A stretch of DNA of 64,000 bases from Pseudomonadota bacterium. Its GTDB lineage: Bacteria > Pseudomonadota > Gammaproteobacteria > Steroidobacterales > Steroidobacteraceae. The notes beneath the pieces were generated by a model, which saw only the letters and a list, made by a program, of their open reading frames with translations, did not search any database and was not told the DNA's origin. The DNA lies in NCBI GenBank assembly GCA_018241505.1, contig JAFEDS010000002.1, forward strand, positions 90,882 through 154,881, given 5' to 3'. A program made the translations under genes and the position numbers. How positions within the stretch are numbered: position 1 is the first letter of the stretch; each line of letters starts with the position of its first letter. Below are positions 49,915 through 62,701 of this stretch, one piece after another.

Positions 49915-50709
49915 CTATCGGACAACGACAGACGACCGCGGTCTATACCCCACTCTCAACAATTGGCGCGCTCGCTCCTCGGCTGTGCTCTCCGCCGCCT
50001 TGCCCTGGAAGACCTCCACGACCTCGAGCGCCCAGTACCCCTTTCGAACATACGCCGGGCCGGTCACAATCACCGCCGCCTCGGCACCCGCCCGCAAGCG
50101 CACGCGCGACCCCCAGGGCAGCGTCACGGCCGGTGGCACGCGACCACCCACCGGCGCTAGCGGCACATACGCCGCTCCCCGAAGGACCGCCGCCAGTGCC
50201 GGGGCGCCCACCTTTAAATCCGTAGAGCCAACATCGCCGCCCGGCCACTCGGTGATCTGCAATCGGCGCCCGCGTCGCCGCGCCGCCTTCAGCAACAACG
50301 TCGCGACCGTCACCCGATGGCAACCCGGCAACCCATCATCCTCTCGCAAGACTGGCTCGCAACAGGAGCAAAAGAGGATGTGCGCCGACATTGCCGATGG
50401 AGCTCGACGATGAGATCGAGCAATTCCTCGGCCGCCGTCGGATCCGCAATCTGGATCCGCTGTCCCCGCTTGCCGAGGATCCGCGCGTTCCCTAACTGCC
50501 GCATCCACCGGTAGCGCGTCATCCCCACGATCGCTTCAAACGTGTGGTCCTTAAAATCATGCGCACGCATCTTGCGGGAGATCCGCAAATCCACAAACAC
50601 CGGCGGGCGAAACTCGCCGCCGCTCGAGCGTATCCACCGCCCGCACGAAGTGACGCGAGGCGCTGCCCCAGCCGTGATAGCCCCAGGTGAACGCCTGCAA
50701 TGAATTCAT
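49915..50709 (-). pseudogene. DUF488 family gene broken by two frameshifts
   Basis: Three consecutive minus-strand frames give the pieces of one DUF488 protein. Piece 1 (from ATG 50709) is MNSLQAFTWGYHGWGSASRH. Piece 2, shifted by one base near 50625, begins GGEFRPPVFVDLRISRKMRA and runs to LLDLIVELHRQ. Piece 3, shifted again near 50395, is HILFCSCCEPVLREDDGLPG, CHRVTVATLLLKAARRRGRR and LQITEWPGG. The order TWGYHG, vDvR, CSCEP-CHR is the DUF488 layout. A further 100 residues follow. Two shifts make a functional protein unlikely. Confidence 0.82.
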
Positions 50710-50839
50710 TTGTAACGCTTCATCCGTCCGACCATTTCGCAACAACTCGACTTAGCAGCTGAGACTTCAATCTCAACGCTCCAGATCCACGTCGCTTAAC
50801 CGTGCCGGCCAAACTTCTCCTCACGCATGCCCTCAGGCT

Positions 50840-51907
50840 CTAAGGTGCGAATCGTGAATCGAGCATTGCGAGCAGACGCTGTGCCTTCTCGTCTGCGATA
50901 GTCACCGAGGTACTGACGGGGTGATATAGATCCAATTCCGCGCGCAACTGGGCCGGCGGGATCGCGTCCTGCAGGTGCCTGGCGGTTGCCTTCCACTTAA
51001 TCGTAAGCCGATGGCGCAGCACTCCCGAGCGGCGGTCGTCCGGTGCACCCTGGGGTACCAGACGATAAACAGGATCCTCTAACACACCCCAACCGAGGGC
51101 ACCAAATCCCTTCGCATAAGCCACAATTCGATCGCCCCGCATATAGCTCTTCAGCAGGGCCTCCCCTTCATCGTCCGGCACATTGTCCCAACTCGTTGGA
51201 ATTTCTCCCTGGTCCCGAAGATAGGTCCACCAATCGTCATCCGCAGCTCCAATGTTGTGCCAAAAAACCGCCGGCTCGCGGCCCAGACTTCCAGAGAACG
51301 TCAAAGGGAAAATGTCGGGTGGAGATTGGTCGAACACGACTGAGAAGGACAGGAATCGTTGCGAGTTCACCTCCATCGGCGCGTAATCCATACACCGAAA
51401 AGCGATGCCATTCGATCCGAACCACTTCCCCATCGAGAACAGTGCACGATCGAAGCTGCGCGCCATGAGGATAATTCGCTGCCGACGATTGACGTCCTCG
51501 TAAGACACACTGCCGAGAAACGATTTGATTCGCTCTTCCAGCTCCTGCAACTGTTTGGGATTGCGACGGAATTGACGGGCGAAATCGCGCCCACGAAACG
51601 GCGTGAACGCCGCAAGGTATTGCAACGCCTGGGTAGACGCACCCGCCGGGGCCTGGTCGCGCTTCAGTTCTATAAACACGCTGCTGCCCTGCTGGTCCAG
51701 CGCCACGATGTCCGCGCGCTTCTTGTCCTGAGTTGACACCTGATTCTTCACCACGAGGAGTTCCTCGCCGAAGATCGACGCGTTCAGAATCCCGGATTCA
51801 GCCCCCGGACCGCTTATGAGGTACTTTTCGAGCTCCAACTCCTTCGGGCTCCAATTCGAGCGATGTCGTGACAGTGAGGAACCATCCGGCGCAACTGAAA
51901 ACAACAT
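50840..51907 (-). CDS. PD-(D/E)XK-type nuclease (DUF91/NucS-like)
   Basis: A 355-residue protein. Residues about 55-90 hold ADIVALDQQGSSVFIELKRD, the D-(X)n-E-X-K signature of the PD-(D/E)XK nuclease fold, seen in endonuclease NucS (DUF91) and in restriction-linked nucleases. The rest (e.g. FFLGSVSYEDVN, YEDVNRRQRIILMARS) is beta-rich. GGAG precedes the ATG. It lies downstream of the type I restriction genes on the same strand, so it probably belongs to the defence cluster. Confidence 0.82.
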   Translation of the reverse strand: MLFSVAPDGSSLSRHRSNWSPKELELEKYLISGPGAESGILNASIFGEELLVVKNQVSTQDKKRADIVALDQQGSSVFIELKRDQAPAGASTQALQYLAAFTPFRGRDFARQFRRNPKQLQELEERIKSFLGSVSYEDVNRRQRIILMARSFDRALFSMGKWFGSNGIAFRCMDYAPMEVNSQRFLSFSVVFDQSPPDIFPLTFSGSLGREPAVFWHNIGAADDDWWTYLRDQGEIPTSWDNVPDDEGEALLKSYMRGDRIVAYAKGFGALGWGVLEDPVYRLVPQGAPDDRRSGVLRHRLTIKWKATARHLQDAIPPAQLRAELDLYHPVSTSVTIADEKAQRLLAMLDSRFAP

Positions 51908-52198
51908 CTACGATCTCCATCCATCGACGCAGTCTATCAAGCGAGCGAGCAGATACGTCTTTTGCCATTGGTCTTGCCGTCGGCTCTCCGCCTCCAACCC
52001 CTCCGACGCCGGCTCGACCCCGCGGACGCGCCGGATAGCCCGCGCCCGCGCGCACGCGATAGATAACAACGGGCGCTCCGTGTCATATACCTCTTTCAGA
52101 TCCGCATCCTCGCCGACCGGCTCGACCCGAGGAGTGGATCGAACACGTCGACCCAACTCACCACCCGACGTACTACGCCAGCACCGCACAGGCAGCGT
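51908..52198. other. Gap between the HEPN gene and the nuclease gene
   Basis: About 290 bases. A minus-strand frame fills it (ending WQKTYLLARLIDCVDGWRS) but its first half repeats GVEP/RVEPVGED-like text from GC-rich DNA, and I do not accept it as a gene. GGCTCGACC occurs twice (about 52010 and 52120). Confidence 0.4.
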
Positions 52199-52993
52199 TC
52201 AGATTCCGAAGTATCGAATGACGTGATTGAAGCACTCCAAATCCGTCTTGGAAAACGGCACCGACTTACCTACCATGAGATCCGCGTGGACCGCGGCGTT
52301 GCGGCGCTTCTGGATCTCTCGTATATGATTCATTGGAAAGCCGGGGGCTTGATCCAGCTTCAACAACTGTACGTAATCCAGCATTTTCTTGAGGCCGAGG
52401 TTCGAGTCGCCGCGCAACAGCCTCGGCTGCACATCGGCATCCAGCAGCATTTGATACAGGATCATTTCACAAATGGCACCGGCCAATATGGTGGCCGTTC
52501 TGAATCGGTTCTTCGAGAAGTTGAGTCGATAATCTCGGTAGAACTCATCCAACAAGTGCGCAAACGGGCCTGGCGGTTTCGCCACCACCAACTCGCCGAC
52601 GGATTGCCCTTCCTTCACGGACTCGGGAAATGGAACCGGCAGATCAAACAGCACGTTGCGAGGAACACGCAGGATCACCGATCCCGTCGCCTCGGACGCC
52701 AGATAGGCGCGTATCTCATCGTGTGACAAATACCAAAGCAGATAATTCGGAGTGACTCGGGTCGCCTTGGCGTAGGCGTTCAGCGCCAACGGCACCGAGA
52801 ATCCCTTATGAGCAGCCTCTTTCTCCAGAATGGACAGCCGCACCGTCCGGTCGCTCGACGCCATCGACACTAACGTGCCGGCCGGAATGCGCGCACCGTG
52901 CTTGATCGGTTCAATGAGCTTACCGAGCTTCGTTCGGGAACTTCGACGGAACTCGCGATCCAACAGGCTCGCAATGGCGGAAGGAACGGTCAT
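52199..52993 (-). CDS. HsdS-like half fused to a HEPN-like domain
   Basis: A 264-residue protein translated after hsdS (four-base overlap, ATGA). Residues about 20-130 resemble one target-recognition half of an HsdS subunit (KLGKLIEPIKHGARIPAG, YLLWYLSHDEIRAYLASEAT, GSVILRVPRNVLFDLPVPFP). The C-terminal 110 residues are helical with RNAAVH at 231-236, the Rx4H motif of HEPN domains. HEPN RNases occur in restriction-linked systems such as PrrC. Activity and partner are unproven; it may guard or modify the type I enzyme. No second target-recognition half is present. Confidence 0.72.
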   Translation of the reverse strand: MTVPSAIASLLDREFRRSSRTKLGKLIEPIKHGARIPAGTLVSMASSDRTVRLSILEKEAAHKGFSVPLALNAYAKATRVTPNYLLWYLSHDEIRAYLASEATGSVILRVPRNVLFDLPVPFPESVKEGQSVGELVVAKPPGPFAHLLDEFYRDYRLNFSKNRFRTATILAGAICEMILYQMLLDADVQPRLLRGDSNLGLKKMLDYVQLLKLDQAPGFPMNHIREIQKRRNAAVHADLMVGKSVPFSKTDLECFNHVIRYFGI

Positions 52994-54537
52994 GCAGATT
53001 TTCGAGTACTGCGTGATCTAGTTCGCTTGAGCGACCGCGTGACCGGCCGACTGATTTTGCTGCGCAGCCGCTTCTCGGCATTTCTATGGTCCTCCGACCC
53101 CTTCCCGACCGCCCGCTTTTCCCGCCCCTTCCGGATCCGCTCCAGCAACACACTCGCCGGCTCATCCATCGGATCCTGCGACACCAGCTCGCCGCGAAAG
53201 GCCTTTGCCAATATAGCCGGGACGCACTTATCCAAGCTATTCATCGCCGACGTATATCTGTGACCGAGTCCGTCCACACACGCAAACAGTTCACCGCACC
53301 GGCGGACAATTTCCATCTGCTCCTTGAGTGGTGGGAGGGGAACAGGCACCCGTCGCAGATCACGAATATGTAGATTCTTCATCCCGCTACCCGTGATCTC
53401 AGATGCAACATCAATTGAGTCCATCCATGCCTCGAATGCTATCTCCATGTACTGAACCGAGACATGGTTTCTTATCGGCTTCACAAGCGCAACGCTAACA
53501 AACAAGCTGAATTCTCTTTCATCTGCGACAATCGCAGTACGCCCGATGGTGCCGCTCTTTGTTACCAGTAGGTCACCCATCTGGGGGTTACAGCGCTTCG
53601 CGAGTTCATGATGCTCCTCGGCAGAAATGAATCTGCAGTCGTCAAAGAACACGGATTGCTTTCGAACATCCTTTACCGAAATGAATGGCACGCCGCGAGG
53701 CTGATACTTGGGCGTAAAATGAGTTCCGTCGACCACTTGCGATGCGAGCCTGTCTATGGACGCCCACCGCCAACTCTTTGGGATCTCTGAGATGTATGGA
53801 GCAAGCGGTTGAGTGGCGGCTTTCAGCGATCCGCGGTTGTTATCCGCCCACGTTGCACTCCTCGCCATATGGATTTCCGACAGCTCATCCTCTATTCGAC
53901 TTTTCGGATTTTCTTTCCTCCACTCCTCCGTCAACTTACCCGACACCGCCGCCTCGAGAACCGCCTCCCGAAACTGATTGAGAATTTTAGGAAAGGTATC
54001 TAGACGACCGCGACACGCCGCAACTCGAATGATGAGTTTTCCAAGCAGATCAGCGATGCGCTGCTGTTCCGCGAGAGGCGGAAGCGGAATTTGAAATTCG
54101 AGGATTTGCTGCTTCGTGAGAGCCTGCCGTGTCATTCCGTAGTTTTCGGCCCCGATTTTCGCTTGCATTTGCGGGCTAGAAAGGAACGCGACAAGGAATC
54201 TATTGTCAAGCGCTTGATTGGGCCGAATTATGCAGACGTGCTGATTCACTCGCGCACCATCCATGTCGTCCGGGGCAACAGTGACACGTCCGATTGAGGC
54301 GCCTGTGATATTCAGAAGCACATCACCCGCACGGACCTCCACGTTGGCCAACTGGTCCGCCTGATCCTGATCGAGGTAGGCGAGCCCCTCTCTCTTGAAC
54401 CCAAAGAAGACTACGTTCATCGACCGTATCAAAGGCACACCGGTGGCCTGATACGACTCCTTTCCACCCCTTGGAGTCGAACCGCTGCCAACTTTAAGGG
54501 TTAAATCCGAAAGGGCGACCAATGGCCACCTGCTCAC
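52990..54537 (-). CDS. hsdS: Type I restriction specificity subunit
   Basis: A 515-residue HsdS with two target-recognition domains. TRD1 covers about 1-155 (SGSTPRGGKESYQATGVPLI, ending FQIPLPPLAEQQRIADLLG), followed by a conserved helix; TRD2 covers about 235-425 (WRWASIDRLASQVVDGTHF, ending VPVPLPPLKEQMEIVRRCG) with a second helix. A basic tail of about 45 residues follows. It overlaps hsdM by four bases and the HEPN-fusion gene by four. The two halves recognise the two parts of a split target site. Confidence 0.95.
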   Translation of the reverse strand: MSRWPLVALSDLTLKVGSGSTPRGGKESYQATGVPLIRSMNVVFFGFKREGLAYLDQDQADQLANVEVRAGDVLLNITGASIGRVTVAPDDMDGARVNQHVCIIRPNQALDNRFLVAFLSSPQMQAKIGAENYGMTRQALTKQQILEFQIPLPPLAEQQRIADLLGKLIIRVAACRGRLDTFPKILNQFREAVLEAAVSGKLTEEWRKENPKSRIEDELSEIHMARSATWADNNRGSLKAATQPLAPYISEIPKSWRWASIDRLASQVVDGTHFTPKYQPRGVPFISVKDVRKQSVFFDDCRFISAEEHHELAKRCNPQMGDLLVTKSGTIGRTAIVADEREFSLFVSVALVKPIRNHVSVQYMEIAFEAWMDSIDVASEITGSGMKNLHIRDLRRVPVPLPPLKEQMEIVRRCGELFACVDGLGHRYTSAMNSLDKCVPAILAKAFRGELVSQDPMDEPASVLLERIRKGREKRAVGKGSEDHRNAEKRLRSKISRPVTRSLKRTRSRSTRKSA

Positions 54538-56000
54538 GCCTCCACCTCTTCATCTTCCTCACCCAATTCCACGAGAATGCCGCGTAACTCCAGGATCGCT
54601 CCCTCCAGCTCCTCCATCGCCTGTCGCGCCAACACCGCCGGCTCCGGGAGTTCCCCGCCGTTCCCTTCGCTCTCATCCCGCAACCACGCGATGTCGAGGT
54701 TGTCATCCCGCTCGGCGATCCACTCGCGCGTGAATTTCCGGAACTTCCCTGTTTCACCGGCATCCTTGCGCTTCTTAAGACTCGCCGGCAGCCCCAGCGG
54801 ATCGGACCCAAACGCCTGCTCAAACTCCCCGAAATACTCGCGTGTCAATTGGGTACGCTTGCCGAACTGGGGCGCATTTGCGCGCAGGTCGTATACCCAC
54901 ACTTCCTTCGTGTTGCCTTTGTCCTTCTCGCCGCGGGTGAAGAACAGCACGTTGGTTTTCACACCTTGCGCGTAAAAGATGCCGGTGGGCAGGCGCAGAA
55001 TGGTGTGCAGGTTGCACTTGTCCATCAGGTCCGCGCGAATCTGCTTGCCGATGTTCCCTTCAAACAATACGTTATCCGGCAACACGACCGCCGCACGGCC
55101 ACCGGGTTTCAGCCCGCGGTAGATGTGTTGCAGGAAGCAGAACTGCTTGTTGGAGGTGGGATAGGTGAAGTCATCGCGACTCGGCAGCCCGCCGCCTTTT
55201 TTGGTGCCAAACGGCGGGTTGCTCAACATCAGCGTCGCCGGCGGCATGCGCTTGTGATCGTCCGACAGCGTGTCGCCAAAGAAGATACCCGACGCCTTCG
55301 GATCCGAATCGAGCCCATGCAACATCAGATTCATCAACGCCAGGCGATGCGCGTCCTGCACGTGTTCCATGCCGTAGAAGGTCTCGCGGCGATACCTGCG
55401 TTGCTGCGCTTCAGTCCATCGATCGGGGTTGCTGTGTGCGCGGATGTAGCGATCGGAGGCAATGAGAAAGCCGCCCGTGCCGGCGGCGGGGTCCTGGATC
55501 ACATCCCCCAGCGCCGGCTTCATGACGGCGACCATGGCATCAATCAGTGGCCGCGGCGTGAAGTACTGGCCCGCGCCCGACTTTTTCTCGCTCGCATTGC
55601 GCTCGAGGAGGTCCTCGTAAAGATCACCCAGCCCTTCCTGACGCGCGACATACCAATCGAGCTTGTCGATCTCCGTGACCAGCGTTGTCAAGGTGGTGGG
55701 TTTGCGAATCACCGTACTGGCATTCGCGAAAATCTCTTGAACGAGCTTCGAGCCATGCGTACCCAGGTGGATCAGCAGGAGCTTGTAGAATTCGAGTCGA
55801 TCCGGCGCCGTCTTGCGTTCGAGGTCGTCCCAGCGATAGCTCTTCGGGAGCTGGTCCTCCGATTCGGTCTCTTTCGCCATCTTGAGGAAGAGCAAGTACG
55901 TCAGCTCCGTGACGTATTGGTGATAGGTCACCCCGTCGTCGCGCAAGTGGTTGCAGAGATTCCACAGCTTCGCGCCAATGTCGTGGGTCGCGGTCGTCAT
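54534..56000 (-). CDS. hsdM: Type I restriction methylase subunit
   Basis: A 488-residue adenine-N6 methyltransferase. The N-terminal helical domain (LWNLCNHLRDDGVTYHQYVT, ELTYLLFLKM), the SAM motif DPAAGTGGFLI near residue 170 and the catalytic NPPF in SNPPFGTKKGG near 260 are all present. It forms M2S with HsdS and methylates the target. The ATG at 56000 is chosen by similarity to family N-termini; the frame runs on to a GTG at 56036. It starts 17 bases after the hsdR stop and overlaps hsdS by four bases. Confidence 0.96.
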   Translation of the reverse strand: MTTATHDIGAKLWNLCNHLRDDGVTYHQYVTELTYLLFLKMAKETESEDQLPKSYRWDDLERKTAPDRLEFYKLLLIHLGTHGSKLVQEIFANASTVIRKPTTLTTLVTEIDKLDWYVARQEGLGDLYEDLLERNASEKKSGAGQYFTPRPLIDAMVAVMKPALGDVIQDPAAGTGGFLIASDRYIRAHSNPDRWTEAQQRRYRRETFYGMEHVQDAHRLALMNLMLHGLDSDPKASGIFFGDTLSDDHKRMPPATLMLSNPPFGTKKGGGLPSRDDFTYPTSNKQFCFLQHIYRGLKPGGRAAVVLPDNVLFEGNIGKQIRADLMDKCNLHTILRLPTGIFYAQGVKTNVLFFTRGEKDKGNTKEVWVYDLRANAPQFGKRTQLTREYFGEFEQAFGSDPLGLPASLKKRKDAGETGKFRKFTREWIAERDDNLDIAWLRDESEGNGGELPEPAVLARQAMEELEGAILELRGILVELGEEDEEVEA

Positions 56001-56017
56001 GTCGTTAACAAATTGTC

Positions 56018-59000
56018 CTAGGCCGCAGGCGGCCACACTGAGTCATTGAATTGATCGAGGACGGTCGCCAACTGGCCGTCGAACACCTTGTCCAGTCGCT
56101 TGAAACCGCCACCCTCGCGTCGAAAGATCAGATCCGGTTCGTCCAGCGCCGCCCGATCGACCAGCAAGTTGGCCTTGGTCTGTTCGGCAATGCGCGCCAA
56201 CCAGGTGCGCTGCTGCGTGGTCCACTTCCGACTGCTGAGGATCATCTGCAGCGCCCGATTCACCCGCTCATCATACGGGACCAGCGCGTCCCCGAGGGCG
56301 GCCTGCCGGATGAAGCCGAGGATGCTCGCAGCCATGTCCTGATTCGTCATCTCCCGCCAGGCAACTTCCAAATTGCTCTCCGTAAACCCGGCCTGATCGA
56401 GCGCGAGGAGGAGTTCGCGGAGTTGCTGGCGGGTGAGGTCGCGCGGGCGCGTCAAGACGGCCGTGAGCGCGGGAATCCGATTCCCATTCGTCTGGATAAA
56501 GGCCTTGAACTCGGCGATGTAGTCCTCCGGCTTCTTCACCGTTCCATAGCCACGCTCGATGCCTGCCAGGGTGTCCGCATGCGTGGAAATGAAAATGGGA
56601 TCGCCGCGCGCCCCGCCCTTGCGATCCAAGATTTCCCCGAGCTGCGGATTCTGGGTGAACCAGGCGGCAATCTGCGCCAGAGTCTGATGCTGCAACTGCT
56701 CTAGGAAGGCGTCCGGCGCCATCCCACACGTCGTCTCGAAATCCCGCCGCGCGCGCTCGTCCAAATGCCGCTTCTTGCGCTGCAGTTTTGCCCTGAACTG
56801 ATCGAGCACCTCTTGGACCGCCCCGGGATCTTTCACGGTCGCGAGCTCGCGCGCCAATTGGGTAAACGAAATCTGCGGATCCACCACCACCGGTTGCATG
56901 GCGGTGATCGGCCCCAAGGCTTCATACAACCGCACGGCATCAAAGATCCGGAAGGCCTCTTTGCCGATGTCGGGACACAGCCGCGTCGCACGGCCCAACA
57001 TTTGATCAAACAGGATGCGGCTGTTCACCCGGCGCAGAAAGACGATGTTGCAGATCTCGGGCACATCGATGCCCGTGGTCAACAGATCCACGGTCACCGC
57101 CACACTCGGCATGCGCTCGTTCTTATAGCGCCGAATGAGCCCGGACGGATCATCCGCCGTGCCCGTGATCTTCAAGACCGCATCGTCATCCACGTCACCG
57201 TATCGCTGCTCAAAGGCGAGCTTCAGGAGCCTCACCACCTCATCGGCGTGCGCGTCGCTGACGCAGAACACGAGGGTTTTCTGTCGGGAGCTAGGATCGA
57301 TCTCGGAAGCGAGGAATTCACAGACGACGCGATTGAACGACTCCGACAACACTTTCCGGTTGAAGTCCTCAATCTCGAGCCGGATCTCATCGGGCGCCTT
57401 GAAGAGCTCAATCTGGTTTTTGCGCGGATCATAAGCTTGAATGTCCTCGCCCTTCTGCCAGCGAATGCCCGCCGTGGAGAGCTCCGTCTTGATTTGCACT
57501 GGCGGTTCGTGATCCACCAGGAAGCCATCAATGACCGCCTCACGATAGCTGTAGGCGAACACCGGCGTCCCGAAGATATCCACCGTGTGCAGTGCCGGCG
57601 TTGCCGTCAGCCCAATCTTCACCGCATCGAAATAGTCGATGACCCGTCGGTATTGCGACACATAGTCGTCAAAGTTGCGAAAGCTCAACTCCCGGTCCGA
57701 CAGATCCCGATCCAACAGATACCCGCGATGACACTCATCGACGACGATGCAGTCATACCGGTCCACCGGCGGCACCTCCCCGTCGTCCGAAGGAATCAAC
57801 ACCCGCTTCACCATCCCCTGAATGGTTGCAATGTGGACCTTGGTATCCGTATCCGGTGCGCTGTCCTTCAACTCCTTGATCCCGAACACGGACGCGAACG
57901 TGTTGAGATTCTCCATGCGCGTGTCTTTGAACGCATTCGCCGCCTGTTCGCCCAACGCGGATCGATCCACCAGAAATAACACTCGCCGGAAACGCTGGGT
58001 CTTCAAGAAACGATAGATGAGCGCAATACACGTCTTGGTTTTGCCGGTCCCCGTTGCCATGGCGAGCAACATCTGACGTTGCACGCCCGTTGCCAGCACC
58101 CGCTCCACCGCATGGATCGCCTCCCGCTGGTAGGGTCGCAAAGGAAAACCATAATCAAACGGTTCCAGGGCAAGCGCCGCATCTGCCTGCGCCGTGTCCT
58201 GCTTCAACATCTCCTTCAAGCCACCCGGCGTATGCCAGCTCTCCAAGGGACGTGCGAGATTGTGGGATCGCCGCACATCGCAAAACCACACTCCACTCTT
58301 ACTCGCAATCTGCTTCAAGTACGGGCGGCCATTGGAGGAGAACACGAACGGCAATCGATACTCTCCCCACGGTCCGCCGAAGGCGGTGAGCTCAGCGGAG
58401 ACAGCAAATCCGCGGCTGTAGCGCTTGGCCTGTTGGAGCGCGGCGGATACATCGATATTCTCGCGTTTGGCTTCAACCGCGCCGACCGGCATCAGCCCGA
58501 CAAACAACACATAATCCGCCGGACCGTTGGAGGTGGGCCACTCCGCAATCGCCAAATTCCGGCCCTTCTCCGGTCGCGTGCCGCGACCATATCGCAGGAC
58601 CGCCGAATCAGCCTCCCACCCGGCCGCACGCAGTTGGCGATCGATCCGGACGCGCGTGTCGGCTTCGTCGAGATCCACCTGCTCGGCCGCGTCGTTGGCG
58701 GACTGTACGAGGTGATTGAGCACATCCGGCGGTTTCGCCGCCGCCGTCGCCTGCAGGGCCGCCAGCCGCTGTTCCAGAGCGGCTTTGGCCTGTTCGGCCT
58801 CAGACGCCATACCCCCCCAGACCGATTGGTCCTGCTGAGCGGCTTCGAGGCGGGCGCGGGTCGCCGCGAGCTCCGCGGCCGTCTGCTGGTGCGTCGCCCG
58901 ATAGTCCTCAAGGGTTTGATTGAGGCGCGCCAGTTCGGCCCTGAGCGCCTCGCTCTCGTCCTTCGGCGCGACCGGCGGCAGAAAGGGCCCCGACTTGAAG

Positions 59001-59389
59001 GCCTTGTCCTTGAAAGTCCGGTGATACCACACACCCAACTGCCAACTCAGCCGCAACATCGCCAGCGCCGTGCGATGGTCGCCGCCCCCGCGATGGCTCG
59101 CCGCATTGCCGGCGTTCTTGACCTCGTGAAAGAGGGTGGCAATCTCGCGCGGCACAATCTGCGAGCCCTGCAGGCGGCGCAGCAGTTCGGATTGCGGCTC
59201 CTCGGTGGAGGTATAGAGCCCCGCGCGGGAGGCCACCAACTGCGCCAGCACCTCGCCGAACTGCCGCAGCTTCATCAGGCAGGTATTGGGATCGTCGGCG
59301 AAGTACTTCTCGGCCAGCATCCCAAACCGCACGAGCTGCGCATCGTGCACCTGAAGAAACCCAAAGTTGGAGGGAATCGAACCCGCCAT
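56018..59389 (-). CDS. hsdR: Type I restriction subunit R
   Basis: A 1123-residue translocase-nuclease. Residues 1-130 form a DUF4145-like (HEPN-related) domain, followed by a coiled coil near 145-215 and a nuclease region (about 245-330). The Walker A motif MATGTGKT lies near 443 and the DEAD-box DECH near 548, with further helicase motifs (RRVNSRILFDQMLGRATRL). The C-terminal 300 residues are the helical domain. It moves DNA past the complex until collision triggers cleavage. First gene of the hsdRMS operon; no strong ribosome-binding site at its ATG. Confidence 0.95.
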   Translation of the reverse strand: MAGSIPSNFGFLQVHDAQLVRFGMLAEKYFADDPNTCLMKLRQFGEVLAQLVASRAGLYTSTEEPQSELLRRLQGSQIVPREIATLFHEVKNAGNAASHRGGGDHRTALAMLRLSWQLGVWYHRTFKDKAFKSGPFLPPVAPKDESEALRAELARLNQTLEDYRATHQQTAAELAATRARLEAAQQDQSVWGGMASEAEQAKAALEQRLAALQATAAAKPPDVLNHLVQSANDAAEQVDLDEADTRVRIDRQLRAAGWEADSAVLRYGRGTRPEKGRNLAIAEWPTSNGPADYVLFVGLMPVGAVEAKRENIDVSAALQQAKRYSRGFAVSAELTAFGGPWGEYRLPFVFSSNGRPYLKQIASKSGVWFCDVRRSHNLARPLESWHTPGGLKEMLKQDTAQADAALALEPFDYGFPLRPYQREAIHAVERVLATGVQRQMLLAMATGTGKTKTCIALIYRFLKTQRFRRVLFLVDRSALGEQAANAFKDTRMENLNTFASVFGIKELKDSAPDTDTKVHIATIQGMVKRVLIPSDDGEVPPVDRYDCIVVDECHRGYLLDRDLSDRELSFRNFDDYVSQYRRVIDYFDAVKIGLTATPALHTVDIFGTPVFAYSYREAVIDGFLVDHEPPVQIKTELSTAGIRWQKGEDIQAYDPRKNQIELFKAPDEIRLEIEDFNRKVLSESFNRVVCEFLASEIDPSSRQKTLVFCVSDAHADEVVRLLKLAFEQRYGDVDDDAVLKITGTADDPSGLIRRYKNERMPSVAVTVDLLTTGIDVPEICNIVFLRRVNSRILFDQMLGRATRLCPDIGKEAFRIFDAVRLYEALGPITAMQPVVVDPQISFTQLARELATVKDPGAVQEVLDQFRAKLQRKKRHLDERARRDFETTCGMAPDAFLEQLQHQTLAQIAAWFTQNPQLGEILDRKGGARGDPIFISTHADTLAGIERGYGTVKKPEDYIAEFKAFIQTNGNRIPALTAVLTRPRDLTRQQLRELLLALDQAGFTESNLEVAWREMTNQDMAASILGFIRQAALGDALVPYDERVNRALQMILSSRKWTTQQRTWLARIAEQTKANLLVDRAALDEPDLIFRREGGGFKRLDKVFDGQLATVLDQFNDSVWPPAA

Positions 59390-59887: not shown

Positions 59888-60745
59888 ATGAATACCGAAC
59901 CCAACGTCACCGCGAACATCGATTCCACGAACGACACCGACGCGCAACTTCATGCCCTCATCCCGAGCCTGAGTCTCGCGCACTTCATCCAACAGCGCGC
60001 GGCCACCCTCGAACGCCTCACCCACGCTATCGCCCTGCTGCGCGAAGCCGATCAGCTCGCCGAAGCGGCCCACCTCGGCCAACCATGCATCGAGATTCAA
60101 CAGCACGGGCGACACACCACCCCCATCACCGACGAGCAGGCGGAAACAGCCGCGCGTCAGCACGTCGACTACGGCGGCTGGAGTTATCTCATGGAGCAAT
60201 CAGGACTCGCGAGCTTCATGGACGCAAAGGCGCGTGAGCAGTGGCGCCAACAACTGGAGAGCCACGACCTCCCGGAACTCACCGCGGATAACATCCGCAG
60301 CACCTTCGCCTTCATGCACGGCAGCCGTCGCGAGATGTTCGATCGGGGCGTCATCACCCTCTTCCAGCGACTCTCCTGGGACTACAAAACGAACCAGCCG
60401 TTCCGCTTCGGCCAGCGCATCATCTTAAACCACCTGCTGCAGGTGTACGGGCGCGACACCCACCAGGCCTTCCTCAATCACACCACGACCGACCAACTCG
60501 ACGACCTGCTGCGTGTCTTTCATGTCCTGGACGGCCAACCCGAACCCGACCACCGCCAGGGGATGTACCGCATACTGAGTGCGGCTCTGCACGAACACGC
60601 CACCAACTGGAGCGGCCCGTACTTCTCGTTGCGCTGGTTCCGCAAAGGCGGCGGCCATCTCACCTTCACCCGCCCCGACCTCGTGGATGCGTTGAATCGC
60701 ATCCTCGCGCGTCACTTCCCGAACGCGCTGCCGGCGCCGCGATGA
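59888..60745 (+). CDS. DUF4942 domain protein
   Basis: A 285-residue protein. The C-terminal two thirds match DUF4942 by eye (REMFDRGVITLFQRLSWDYK, FRFGQRIILNHLL, GPYFSLRWFRKGGGHLTF, DLVDALNRILA), a domain frequent in plasmids, prophages and integrative elements, sometimes linked to antirestriction or methylase-like proteins. Function unproven. GAGGAG lies eight bases before the ATG. It shares a C hairpin with the radC-like gene, which suggests common control within one mobile element. Confidence 0.88.
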   Translation: MNTEPNVTANIDSTNDTDAQLHALIPSLSLAHFIQQRAATLERLTHAIALLREADQLAEAAHLGQPCIEIQQHGRHTTPITDEQAETAARQHVDYGGWSYLMEQSGLASFMDAKAREQWRQQLESHDLPELTADNIRSTFAFMHGSRREMFDRGVITLFQRLSWDYKTNQPFRFGQRIILNHLLQVYGRDTHQAFLNHTTTDQLDDLLRVFHVLDGQPEPDHRQGMYRILSAALHEHATNWSGPYFSLRWFRKGGGHLTFTRPDLVDALNRILARHFPNALPAPR

Positions 60746-61492: not shown

Positions 61493-62701
61493 ATGACCCG
61501 CCCGCCCAGATCCGAAGTCGACGAGGCGCAGATCGTCGGCAACCATAAAGCCGACCACCTCTATACCCACGAATGGACGAGCGGCGAAGGCCGCTACCTG
61601 AACTTCGTGATCGATGAACAGGGCCGGCCCCAGACCATCGACGTCGAGTTAGAACCGCATGCGCGCAATCGGATCAAGGTGACGATTTCCTTTGTCCACG
61701 ACCGAAACGACATCACGAAAATCGAGCTGAAGAAGTTCAAGCTCTACAAGCGCAAGGGTTGGCAGCCCTGCCCGGACGACGAGACCGGATTTGGCAATCA
61801 ACACATCACGCTACGCCCGTACTCGTTTGAGAAGCTGCTCGCTTTCCTCCAGTTCGTCTCGGGACTCGACATCCCCGGAATCACCCAGCGGCGCCTCGCC
61901 CTGTCGATCGACGGGTCGCAGCCTCTTGACGATGAGACAAAGCGCAAACTGCGTACACTGCTGGCACGCAAAGGTGGATCCGAACTCATCGGGGAGCTGC
62001 TGCGAACGGGGCTGATCGCGACCGAGGATCTCGTCAACTTGGGCTACCGCAAGCAGCAGCTCGCACTCTTTGAAAGGATGCTGGCCAGTACGGATGACGT
62101 GACCACCTATCAAAGAGAACACCGGCTCCGCGAAGACCAGCCCGAATCTGCTTGGCAACACTTCTTCGAACAGAATGAATGGATCTTCGGCTACGGGCTC
62201 GATTACCGATTCCAGGGAATTCTGCAATCCCAATTTCATGCCTCGGATACTGACGCAGACGGTTCACAGTCCGTGATCAGCGACTTCTTGCTCGGTGATA
62301 AGCGTTTCACTACCTTCGTGGAGATCAAAACGCCGCAGACACTACTCTTCGCGGGGACGCAAAACCGATCACGCACGTGGCGACTGTCCGGCTCGCTACT
62401 CGACAGTGTCTCCCAGATCCTCGAGCAGAAGGCGGCAGGCTTGCTGAAATTTGATCACGGAACGCTATATGACGCCAACGGCAGCCGCATCACGCAAAAG
62501 CCCTACGATCCGAAGGTCATCCTCTTGATCGGGCATTGGGATCAGCTCAATCAGTCAGCGGATGAGCGCGAACAGGAGACCAAACAACGTACGCTGGAAC
62601 TATTCCGGCGTGATTCCCGCAACATCGAGATCATCACGTACGACGAGCTGTTTGAGAGGGCGAAGTTTATTGTGGAGCATCGCCAGCGAGCTACTTCATG
62701 A
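61493..62701 (+). CDS. sduA: Shedu anti-phage nuclease (DUF4263)
   Basis: A 402-residue protein whose C-terminal half is the DUF4263 nuclease of the Shedu defence system: AWQHFFEQNEWIFGYGLDYR near 218-238, then SDFLLGDKRFTTFVEIKTPQ near 262-281 with the PD-(D/E)XK residues Asp, Glu and Lys. The N-terminal 200 residues form the sensor part that differs between Shedu types. In Bacillus and E. coli SduA alone can protect against phage by DNA nicking. It follows an orphan gene by 12 bases and precedes a trypsin-like protease gene. Confidence 0.92.
   Translation: MTRPPRSEVDEAQIVGNHKADHLYTHEWTSGEGRYLNFVIDEQGRPQTIDVELEPHARNRIKVTISFVHDRNDITKIELKKFKLYKRKGWQPCPDDETGFGNQHITLRPYSFEKLLAFLQFVSGLDIPGITQRRLALSIDGSQPLDDETKRKLRTLLARKGGSELIGELLRTGLIATEDLVNLGYRKQQLALFERMLASTDDVTTYQREHRLREDQPESAWQHFFEQNEWIFGYGLDYRFQGILQSQFHASDTDADGSQSVISDFLLGDKRFTTFVEIKTPQTLLFAGTQNRSRTWRLSGSLLDSVSQILEQKAAGLLKFDHGTLYDANGSRITQKPYDPKVILLIGHWDQLNQSADEREQETKQRTLELFRRDSRNIEIITYDELFERAKFIVEHRQRATS

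Follow-up and report, generated by a model that had tools for sequence, protein, structure and literature searches.

A gene at the end of a type I restriction operon that joins a shortened HsdS recognition domain to a HEPN-like domain

Genes for HEPN-domain proteins recur in restriction–modification (R-M) operons (PMC3710099). In the account given in PMC3874165, the PrrC nuclease stays sequestered within a type I complex until a phage disables the enzyme, which releases it, and the specificity (S) subunits of such enzymes carry a proline-rich hinge of the IPLPP type ahead of their dimerisation helix. Here we describe gene X, which lies directly after hsdS in a type I hsd operon within a 64,000-nucleotide (nt) stretch of a Steroidobacteraceae genome (assembly GCA_018241505.1, contig JAFEDS010000002.1, positions 90,882 to 154,881; the window). 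An initial annotation of the window had given its coordinates, strand and length, its four-base overlap with hsdS and an RNAAVH motif at residues 231-236, all of them correctly.

52199..52993, minus strand: gene X, 264 amino acids (aa), a shortened HsdS recognition domain fused to a HEPN-like domain
52990..52993, minus strand: ATGA, where the start of X overlaps the stop of hsdS
52589..52864, minus strand: HsdS-like recognition-domain piece, residues 44-135, the later portion of the S domain (PADLOC, PHROGs, alignment and a half-HsdS profile built without X)
52622..52642, minus strand: proline-rich hinge LPVPFPE, residues 118-124 (sequence and alignment)
52199..52546, minus strand: HEPN-like domain, residues ~150-264 plus the stop codon (hhalign against solo-HEPN and MtlR-like profiles with controls; alignment)
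52466..52468, minus strand: E176, counterpart of the conserved HEPN acidic residue (alignment)
52286..52303, minus strand: putative HEPN catalytic motif RNAAVH, residues 231-236, with R231, N232 and H236 (sequence and alignment)

We read X as an accessory effector encoded by the operon, in which an HsdS-derived recognition piece carries a HEPN endoribonuclease domain, and assign this reading a probability of roughly 0.45. It draws on the gene order and overlap, the HsdS ancestry of the N-terminal part, a hinge without a coiled coil, and the presence of E176, R231-N232 and H236 in a region scoring above controls with two HEPN profiles. The HEPN domain would dimerise, form the RNase site and cut RNA; the HsdS-derived part and the hinge would tether X to the restriction complex, through HsdS or HsdM surfaces other than the coiled coil, or to DNA, and keep the RNase silent. 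If a phage disabled the enzyme, or the complex fell apart, the RNase would be freed and the infected cell stopped, as for PrrC beside EcoprrI. By this analogy, a guard role is the most plausible one for X, which may thus give the operon a second antiviral defence of its own.

The operon consists of three further genes, which precede X on the same strand in the order hsdR-hsdM-hsdS-X.

56018..59389, minus strand: hsdR, 1123 aa (NCBIfam NF008521, 1571 bits against a cut-off of 729)
54534..56036, minus strand: hsdM, 500 aa (Pfam N6_Mtase, E 1.6e-73; PADLOC MTase_I, E 1.5e-205)
52990..54537, minus strand: hsdS, 515 aa, with two recognition domains (Pfam Methylase_S, E 2.8e-25, in two stretches; PADLOC)

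Given the matches of HsdR to NF008521, of HsdM to N6_Mtase and of HsdS to Methylase_S in two stretches, the enzyme looks intact. The hsdM and hsdS genes overlap by GTGA (54534-54537), and the ATGA shared by hsdS and X likely couples their translation. X is a real gene: it starts within the ATGA overlap, has coding-type codon use and stands fourth in an apparently intact hsd operon. Its GC content at the three codon positions is 0.577/0.400/0.694, and by codon log-likelihood its own frame is the top of six, both for the whole gene and for the N- and C-terminal parts taken separately (mean -3.92 for the X frame against -4.105 or lower for the five others; codon table from hsdR, hsdM, hsdS and the next gene downstream). 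Its codon use is nearer the operon's than that of hsdS (-4.08), although hsdS sat in the training set. From stop to stop the frame spans only 272 aa, so no missed start conceals a longer recognition domain; the same length ruled out X as a frameshifted longer gene.

Derivation of the N-terminal part from an HsdS recognition domain is strongly supported by sequence comparison. The best PADLOC match to a type I specificity family, Specificity_I (PDLC03100), covers residues 44-135 (E 1.3e-5), and phrog_2668 covers residues 76-134 (E 2.3e-5). A half-HsdS profile of six proteins, with X left out but with all six rows picked as matches of X in phylum genomes, gave X 37.1 bits (E 6.6e-10), compared to 15.6 for the best of 5000 shuffles. 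Pfam Methylase_S stayed below threshold in the Pfam search, and the HsdS of EcoR124, the second-best match of X among PDB sequences, was insignificant (E 0.37). The resemblance to a target-recognition half that had been noted at the outset is therefore beyond chance by the PADLOC and half-HsdS results, with the qualification that the half is shortened: the stretch ahead of the conserved strand is 23-30 residues shorter in X than in the six half-HsdS proteins, and 32 residues shorter than in the first recognition domain of the adjacent HsdS. The columns P-x-x-L-x-W are kept in the alignment with the half-HsdS proteins. After the hinge X diverges, with ~115-140 residues of other sequence and no recognisable coiled-coil helix. 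Of the type I S-subunit layout (globular domain, hinge, dimerisation helix), X thus keeps the hinge and has the helix region replaced.

Two origins within the locus were considered and rejected. X is not a recent copy of the adjacent hsdS, to which it shows only 21% identity over 53 residues (E 0.012, two-sequence comparison), and it is not a shuffling silent hsdS cassette, as the region 50500-54700 has no direct repeats of at least 16 nt. One imperfect 16-nt inverted pair is present there, with both arms within hsdS.

Relatives of the recognition part were found among 397 other genomes of the phylum, which gave nine matches at E 0.01 or better (eight to the recognition part, one to the C-terminal part and none to both). 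Five of the eight are open reading frames (ORFs) of 195-228 residues, and five loci (L003, L005, L006, L008 and L010) carry, as judged by eye, S genes with a single target-recognition domain (TRD). At L005 and L008, a solitary S gene of ~200 aa adjoins or overlaps an hsdM-like frame, an order resembling the 'type one and a half' arrangement; single-TRD frames are also present at L161 (214 residues) and L162 (230 residues).

Assignment of the C-terminal part to HEPN is moderately supported, again by sequence. The HEPN superfamily motif is Rx4-6H with a polar residue (N, D or H) after the arginine, and the upstream acidic residue typically lies within Ex3[KR] (PMC3710099). RNAAVH agrees with the former, having N after R, and in an alignment of X with seven HEPN proteins the columns of E176, L210, R231, N232, A234, H236 and F262 are invariant. 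A bare Rx4H occurs in 45% of whole-protein shuffles and is therefore not beyond chance; shuffling the C-terminal part yields the fuller pattern R-N-x-x-[AVILSTG]-H in 0.6% of cases.

Two profiles place X above most controls. In pairwise comparisons of X with 14 HEPN domains, L082 came out best (6 of 500 shuffles equally good); most plasmid proteins of its family are annotated as HEPN domain-containing protein. The solo-HEPN profile, eight members seeded with L082 and so with a protein itself chosen as the best pairwise match to X, scored X at 21.6 in local hhalign, where X surpassed all 400 shuffles, 399 of the 400 open-frame fragments and 11 of the 13 DUF4145 domains detected by Pfam; in global mode, X exceeded 400/400 shuffles, 397/400 fragments and 12/13 DUF4145 domains. 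The MtlR-like profile comprises ten HEPN proteins, its seed (L108) being a match of a profile containing X, and gave a local score of 20.1 with RNxxxH in register, above 399/400 shuffles, 399/400 fragments and 11 of 22 HEPN positives. Control fragments were drawn from 212 open frames of at least 400 residues in the window and the fetched loci, some of which are not real genes, with L001-L009 left out. A search for the MtlR family in 21 genomes found none.

To see how widely the fusion occurs, we searched genomes, plasmids and viruses; the genome draws overlap, their counts do not add up to distinct genomes, and the searches sample part of sequence space. No TRD-HEPN fusion was found in the whole genomes of 98 relatives (including 57 of the same genus, all without X), among the 397 other phylum genomes, in 368 class genomes searched with the C-terminal part, in 72,556 plasmids, where only the N-terminal part matched, or in 50,697 phages, and none was confirmed in viral contigs. 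The 14 matching plasmid records are individually weak (E 0.03 to 9): 10 are annotated as restriction endonuclease subunit S, and the other four comprise two single-TRD frames, one TRD-type frame of 145 residues and one record without an open frame over the match. The single phage match (E 4) was a terminase and was rejected. Matching of exact peptide words against 84,980 species genomes, which by our estimate would miss relatives below roughly 60% identity, yielded no true relative and one spurious match (L002), by eye a protein of response-regulator/histidine-kinase type with EKEAAHKG in common.

Profiles that included X gave 10 HEPN matches in 189 other genomes and 60 TRD matches in 199 others; among the loci kept from these and the preceding searches, X alone had both domains. 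With profiles built without X, none of 1714 ORFs (at least 120 residues, all fetched loci) matched both half-HsdS and HEPN at E 0.1, a test in which X itself did not count as both, its C-terminal part lying above E 0.1. Full-text literature searches, judged by titles and abstract openings of the papers listed (the top-ranked ones for the broader queries), showed no report of an HsdS/TRD-HEPN fusion. X would, to our knowledge, be the first case in which an element of a specificity subunit is joined directly to a HEPN effector. R-M-linked HEPN effectors are already known, and X is new among them in its partner domain, having been seen once.

A number of results weigh against a HEPN effector. The acidic stretch of X is EMILY, or Ex3Y, in which the E is aligned but Ex3[KR] is incomplete. 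Searched alone, the C-terminal part (~134-264) matches nothing in Pfam, in PHROGs or among PDB sequences, and the whole protein has no NCBIfam or PADLOC match over it. Two small DUF4145 profiles, built from six DUF4145-type proteins and from eight DUF4145 domains that start long HsdR-type frames, separate X only weakly, with scores of 0.6 and 2.3 bits, 13 and 10 of the 500 shuffles above X, and ranks of 124 and 88 in the decoy lists. Under hmmsearch with the solo-HEPN profile, X reached 4.9 bits and came third of 5001 sequences when set against shuffles and 16th against open-frame decoys, and in global alignment to the MtlR-like profile 8/400 shuffles and 6/400 fragments score as high as X. 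The hhalign probabilities are low, at 8% (solo-HEPN, where most DUF4145 positives fall below X) and 5% (MtlR-like, where solo HEPN proteins reach up to 88%). In the search of ORFs in the fetched loci, the C-terminal part misses E 0.1 with both HEPN profiles. A profile of the N-terminal region of seven Fic-type ORFs scores X higher than either of them (hhalign 32.2, probability 37%). The coiled coil that would anchor X to the enzyme is missing, and no homolog of the fusion that could show selection on the RNAAVH motif was found in the data searched.

The fusion that the initial annotation proposed accordingly stands firmly on its TRD side and moderately on its HEPN side, where two profiles hold under controls with weak and competing results beside them. 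The hidden Markov model searches it had called for came out in the same way: for Methylase_S, the Pfam threshold was not reached and the PADLOC, phrog and half-HsdS profiles match; for HEPN, X scored above controls with low absolute scores. Its suggestion that X could take over the position of an HsdS half on HsdM loses strength: X lacks the coiled coil, the usual element for such docking, and the HEPN-like part stands where the helix would follow the hinge.

That same replacement is the starting point of an alternative that we consider unlikely, in which the HEPN-like domain is a dimerisation or scaffold module without RNase activity that took the place of the coiled coil, and X is a third, partial S-like subunit modulating assembly or specificity. 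The swap sits right after the hinge, where S subunits have the dimerisation helix, half-HsdS subunits function as dimers (PMC3874165, PMC6158711), some HEPN domains are non-catalytic (PMC3710099), and X has the incomplete Ex3[KR]. The recognition domain is moreover trimmed by only 23-32 residues and may have kept part of its contacts with DNA or protein. However, an inert scaffold would have no need of R231, N232 and H236, all of which are retained, and the DUF4145 domain of HsdR in this operon, whose motif has lost its R (GNAASH), gives an example of how an inactive one can look.

The Fic-type ORFs raise another possibility, which we likewise hold to be improbable: the C-terminal part may be a different small, helical domain, such as what remains of the N-terminal region of a Fic protein, with RNAAVH present by chance. 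The Fic domain motif is HPFxxGNGR. Several of the best genome matches of the C-terminal part are Fic-type ORFs with DQAPGxPxxxxRE in common, and such ORFs are among the 19 matches (E 0.012-0.093) that it found in the 368 other class genomes; L009 carries HPFLDGNGR, and the others were grouped with it by size, match position and alignment. Their profile beats both HEPN profiles and ranks X above 300/300 shuffles and 299/300 fragments, no curated family recognises the C-terminal part, and a bare Rx4H is, as noted, frequent by chance. Yet six of the seven profile rows were chosen as matches of X over hundreds of genomes, which inflates the score, and the rows are mutually close (effective number of sequences, Neff, 1.8). 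The likeness is essentially confined to DQAPGxPxxxxRE; where the Fic-type ORFs have SSxIEGT, the aligned columns of X read VQPRLLRGD, and X has neither HPFxxGNGR in its sequence nor a Fic match in the Pfam search. The two HEPN profiles, in contrast, cover the greater part of the domain and keep the motif in register. Because the Fic score is inflated, the SSxIEGT counterpart is different and the Fic catalytic motif is absent, we kept HEPN as the better reading of the C-terminal part over a Fic-like or other domain, with odds from sequence of roughly three in four.

A variant that keeps the RNase, and that we regard as distinctly doubtful, has the HEPN domain replacing the HsdS dimerisation helix. 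X would form a homodimer through its HEPN faces and show two trimmed recognition domains to DNA or the complex, with the RNase silent while the R-M system is intact or correctly bound. If this were true, a restriction operon would have turned half of a specificity subunit into a switch. Finally, it is highly unlikely that X is an evolutionary accident, a functionless union of leftover hsdS sequence with a stray reading frame: the lack of a fusion homolog in the searched data, the trimmed, helix-less recognition domain and the 57 same-genus genomes without X and without an hsdS match at E 1e-20 would agree with this, but both halves show coding-like codon use nearer the operon's than that of hsdS, the ATGA overlap is exact, the frame is intact and the motif is complete.

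For comparison with the cargo of related operons, 23 hsd loci were fetched, which hold 52 extra ORFs in or beside the operons. Ten ORFs were tested against Pfam (nine of the 52 plus one more), revealing one Abi_2, two Fic, one DUF5677, one YhcG nuclease and one Macro domain; of the remaining ones, one had only a sub-threshold CBS match and three had no match. Abi_2 is a HEPN family that occurs in R-M operons (PMC3710099). The Abi_2 and Fic ORFs indicate that type I operons of this kind bear toxin-like cargo, and X fits as such cargo. On a plasmid of Deinococcus sp. QL22, a hypothetical gene (L049:2569-3330, plus strand) overlaps the end of hsdR by 13 nt; its product, the one with the sub-threshold CBS match only, has a VRNDKSH motif and is possibly another HEPN-type protein encoded within a type I operon.

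The surroundings of the operon contain further features.

59084-59314, minus strand: DUF4145 (HEPN-superfamily) domain at the start of HsdR, residues 26-102 (Pfam)
50840-51907, minus strand: gene for a 355-aa protein, downstream of X at a distance of 291 nt (match to PDC-S11, a PADLOC candidate defence family, E 8e-25)
59888-60745: DUF4942 gene, between the hsd operon and SduA
61493-62701, plus strand: Shedu SduA (PADLOC, E 2e-135; Pfam SduA_C)

One operon thus holds two HEPN-like domains, that of HsdR apparently inactive (its GNAASH motif without the arginine) and that of X apparently complete. The product of the downstream gene also has weak matches to NucS/HSDR_N nucleases, and the gene may belong to the same defence locus as the hsd operon. 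Together, the operon and Shedu SduA make up a small defence island. The operon was probably acquired, because hsdS has no match at E 1e-20 among the 57 same-genus genomes searched. The source assembly is 7.9 Mb, with contamination of 5.67%, and the 57 same-genus genomes are listed at 1.8-6.9 Mb; given this excess size and the contamination, some of its contigs may be foreign.

The silencing of a HEPN guard by a restriction enzyme has been worked out mainly for PrrC. If X is an RNase effector on an HsdS-derived tether, as we favour, a guard made out of part of its enzyme's specificity subunit would explain in a direct, physical way how such a guard stays silent, and would offer a small protein open to testing. 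X would then also be an example of a type I operon gaining an effector by fusion to a recycled piece of hsdS.

Compared with described systems, X shares features with four. R-M fusions in which HEPN is joined directly to an R-M component, as is proposed for X, have restriction endonucleases, SF-II or SF-I helicases or a DUF499 ATPase as partners; in contrast to X, those set out in the parts of the published description drawn on here include none to a specificity-subunit piece. The solo HEPN, DUF4145-like and MtlR-like families resemble X in their invariant E, RN, A and H columns and in profile likeness; the solo-HEPN and MtlR-like profiles matched 25 and 19 of the 1714 ORFs at E 0.1, none of which, unlike X, has a half-HsdS match. 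PrrC, beside the type IC enzyme EcoprrI, is, as proposed for X, a HEPN-superfamily RNase that is encoded within a type I hsd operon (PMC3710099, PMC3874165) and held silent by the enzyme (PMC3874165). In PrrC the HEPN domain is coupled with an ABC ATPase and the gene lies inside the prr operon, whereas X has an HsdS-derived part instead and follows hsdS; X (264 aa) has no ATPase match in Pfam, NCBIfam or PADLOC, which sets it apart from PrrC and RloC, and unlike in the setting of PrrC, the HsdR of its operon belongs to the NF008521 (PRK11448) family. Half-HsdS proteins, such as those of 'type one and a half' methyltransferases and those encoded by solitary S genes of ~200 aa, are the closest sequence match of the N-terminal part and, like X, have one recognition domain ending in a proline-rich hinge. 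X differs from them in being 23-30 residues shorter at the start, in having a HEPN-like domain added and no coiled coil, and in coexisting with a full two-domain hsdS.
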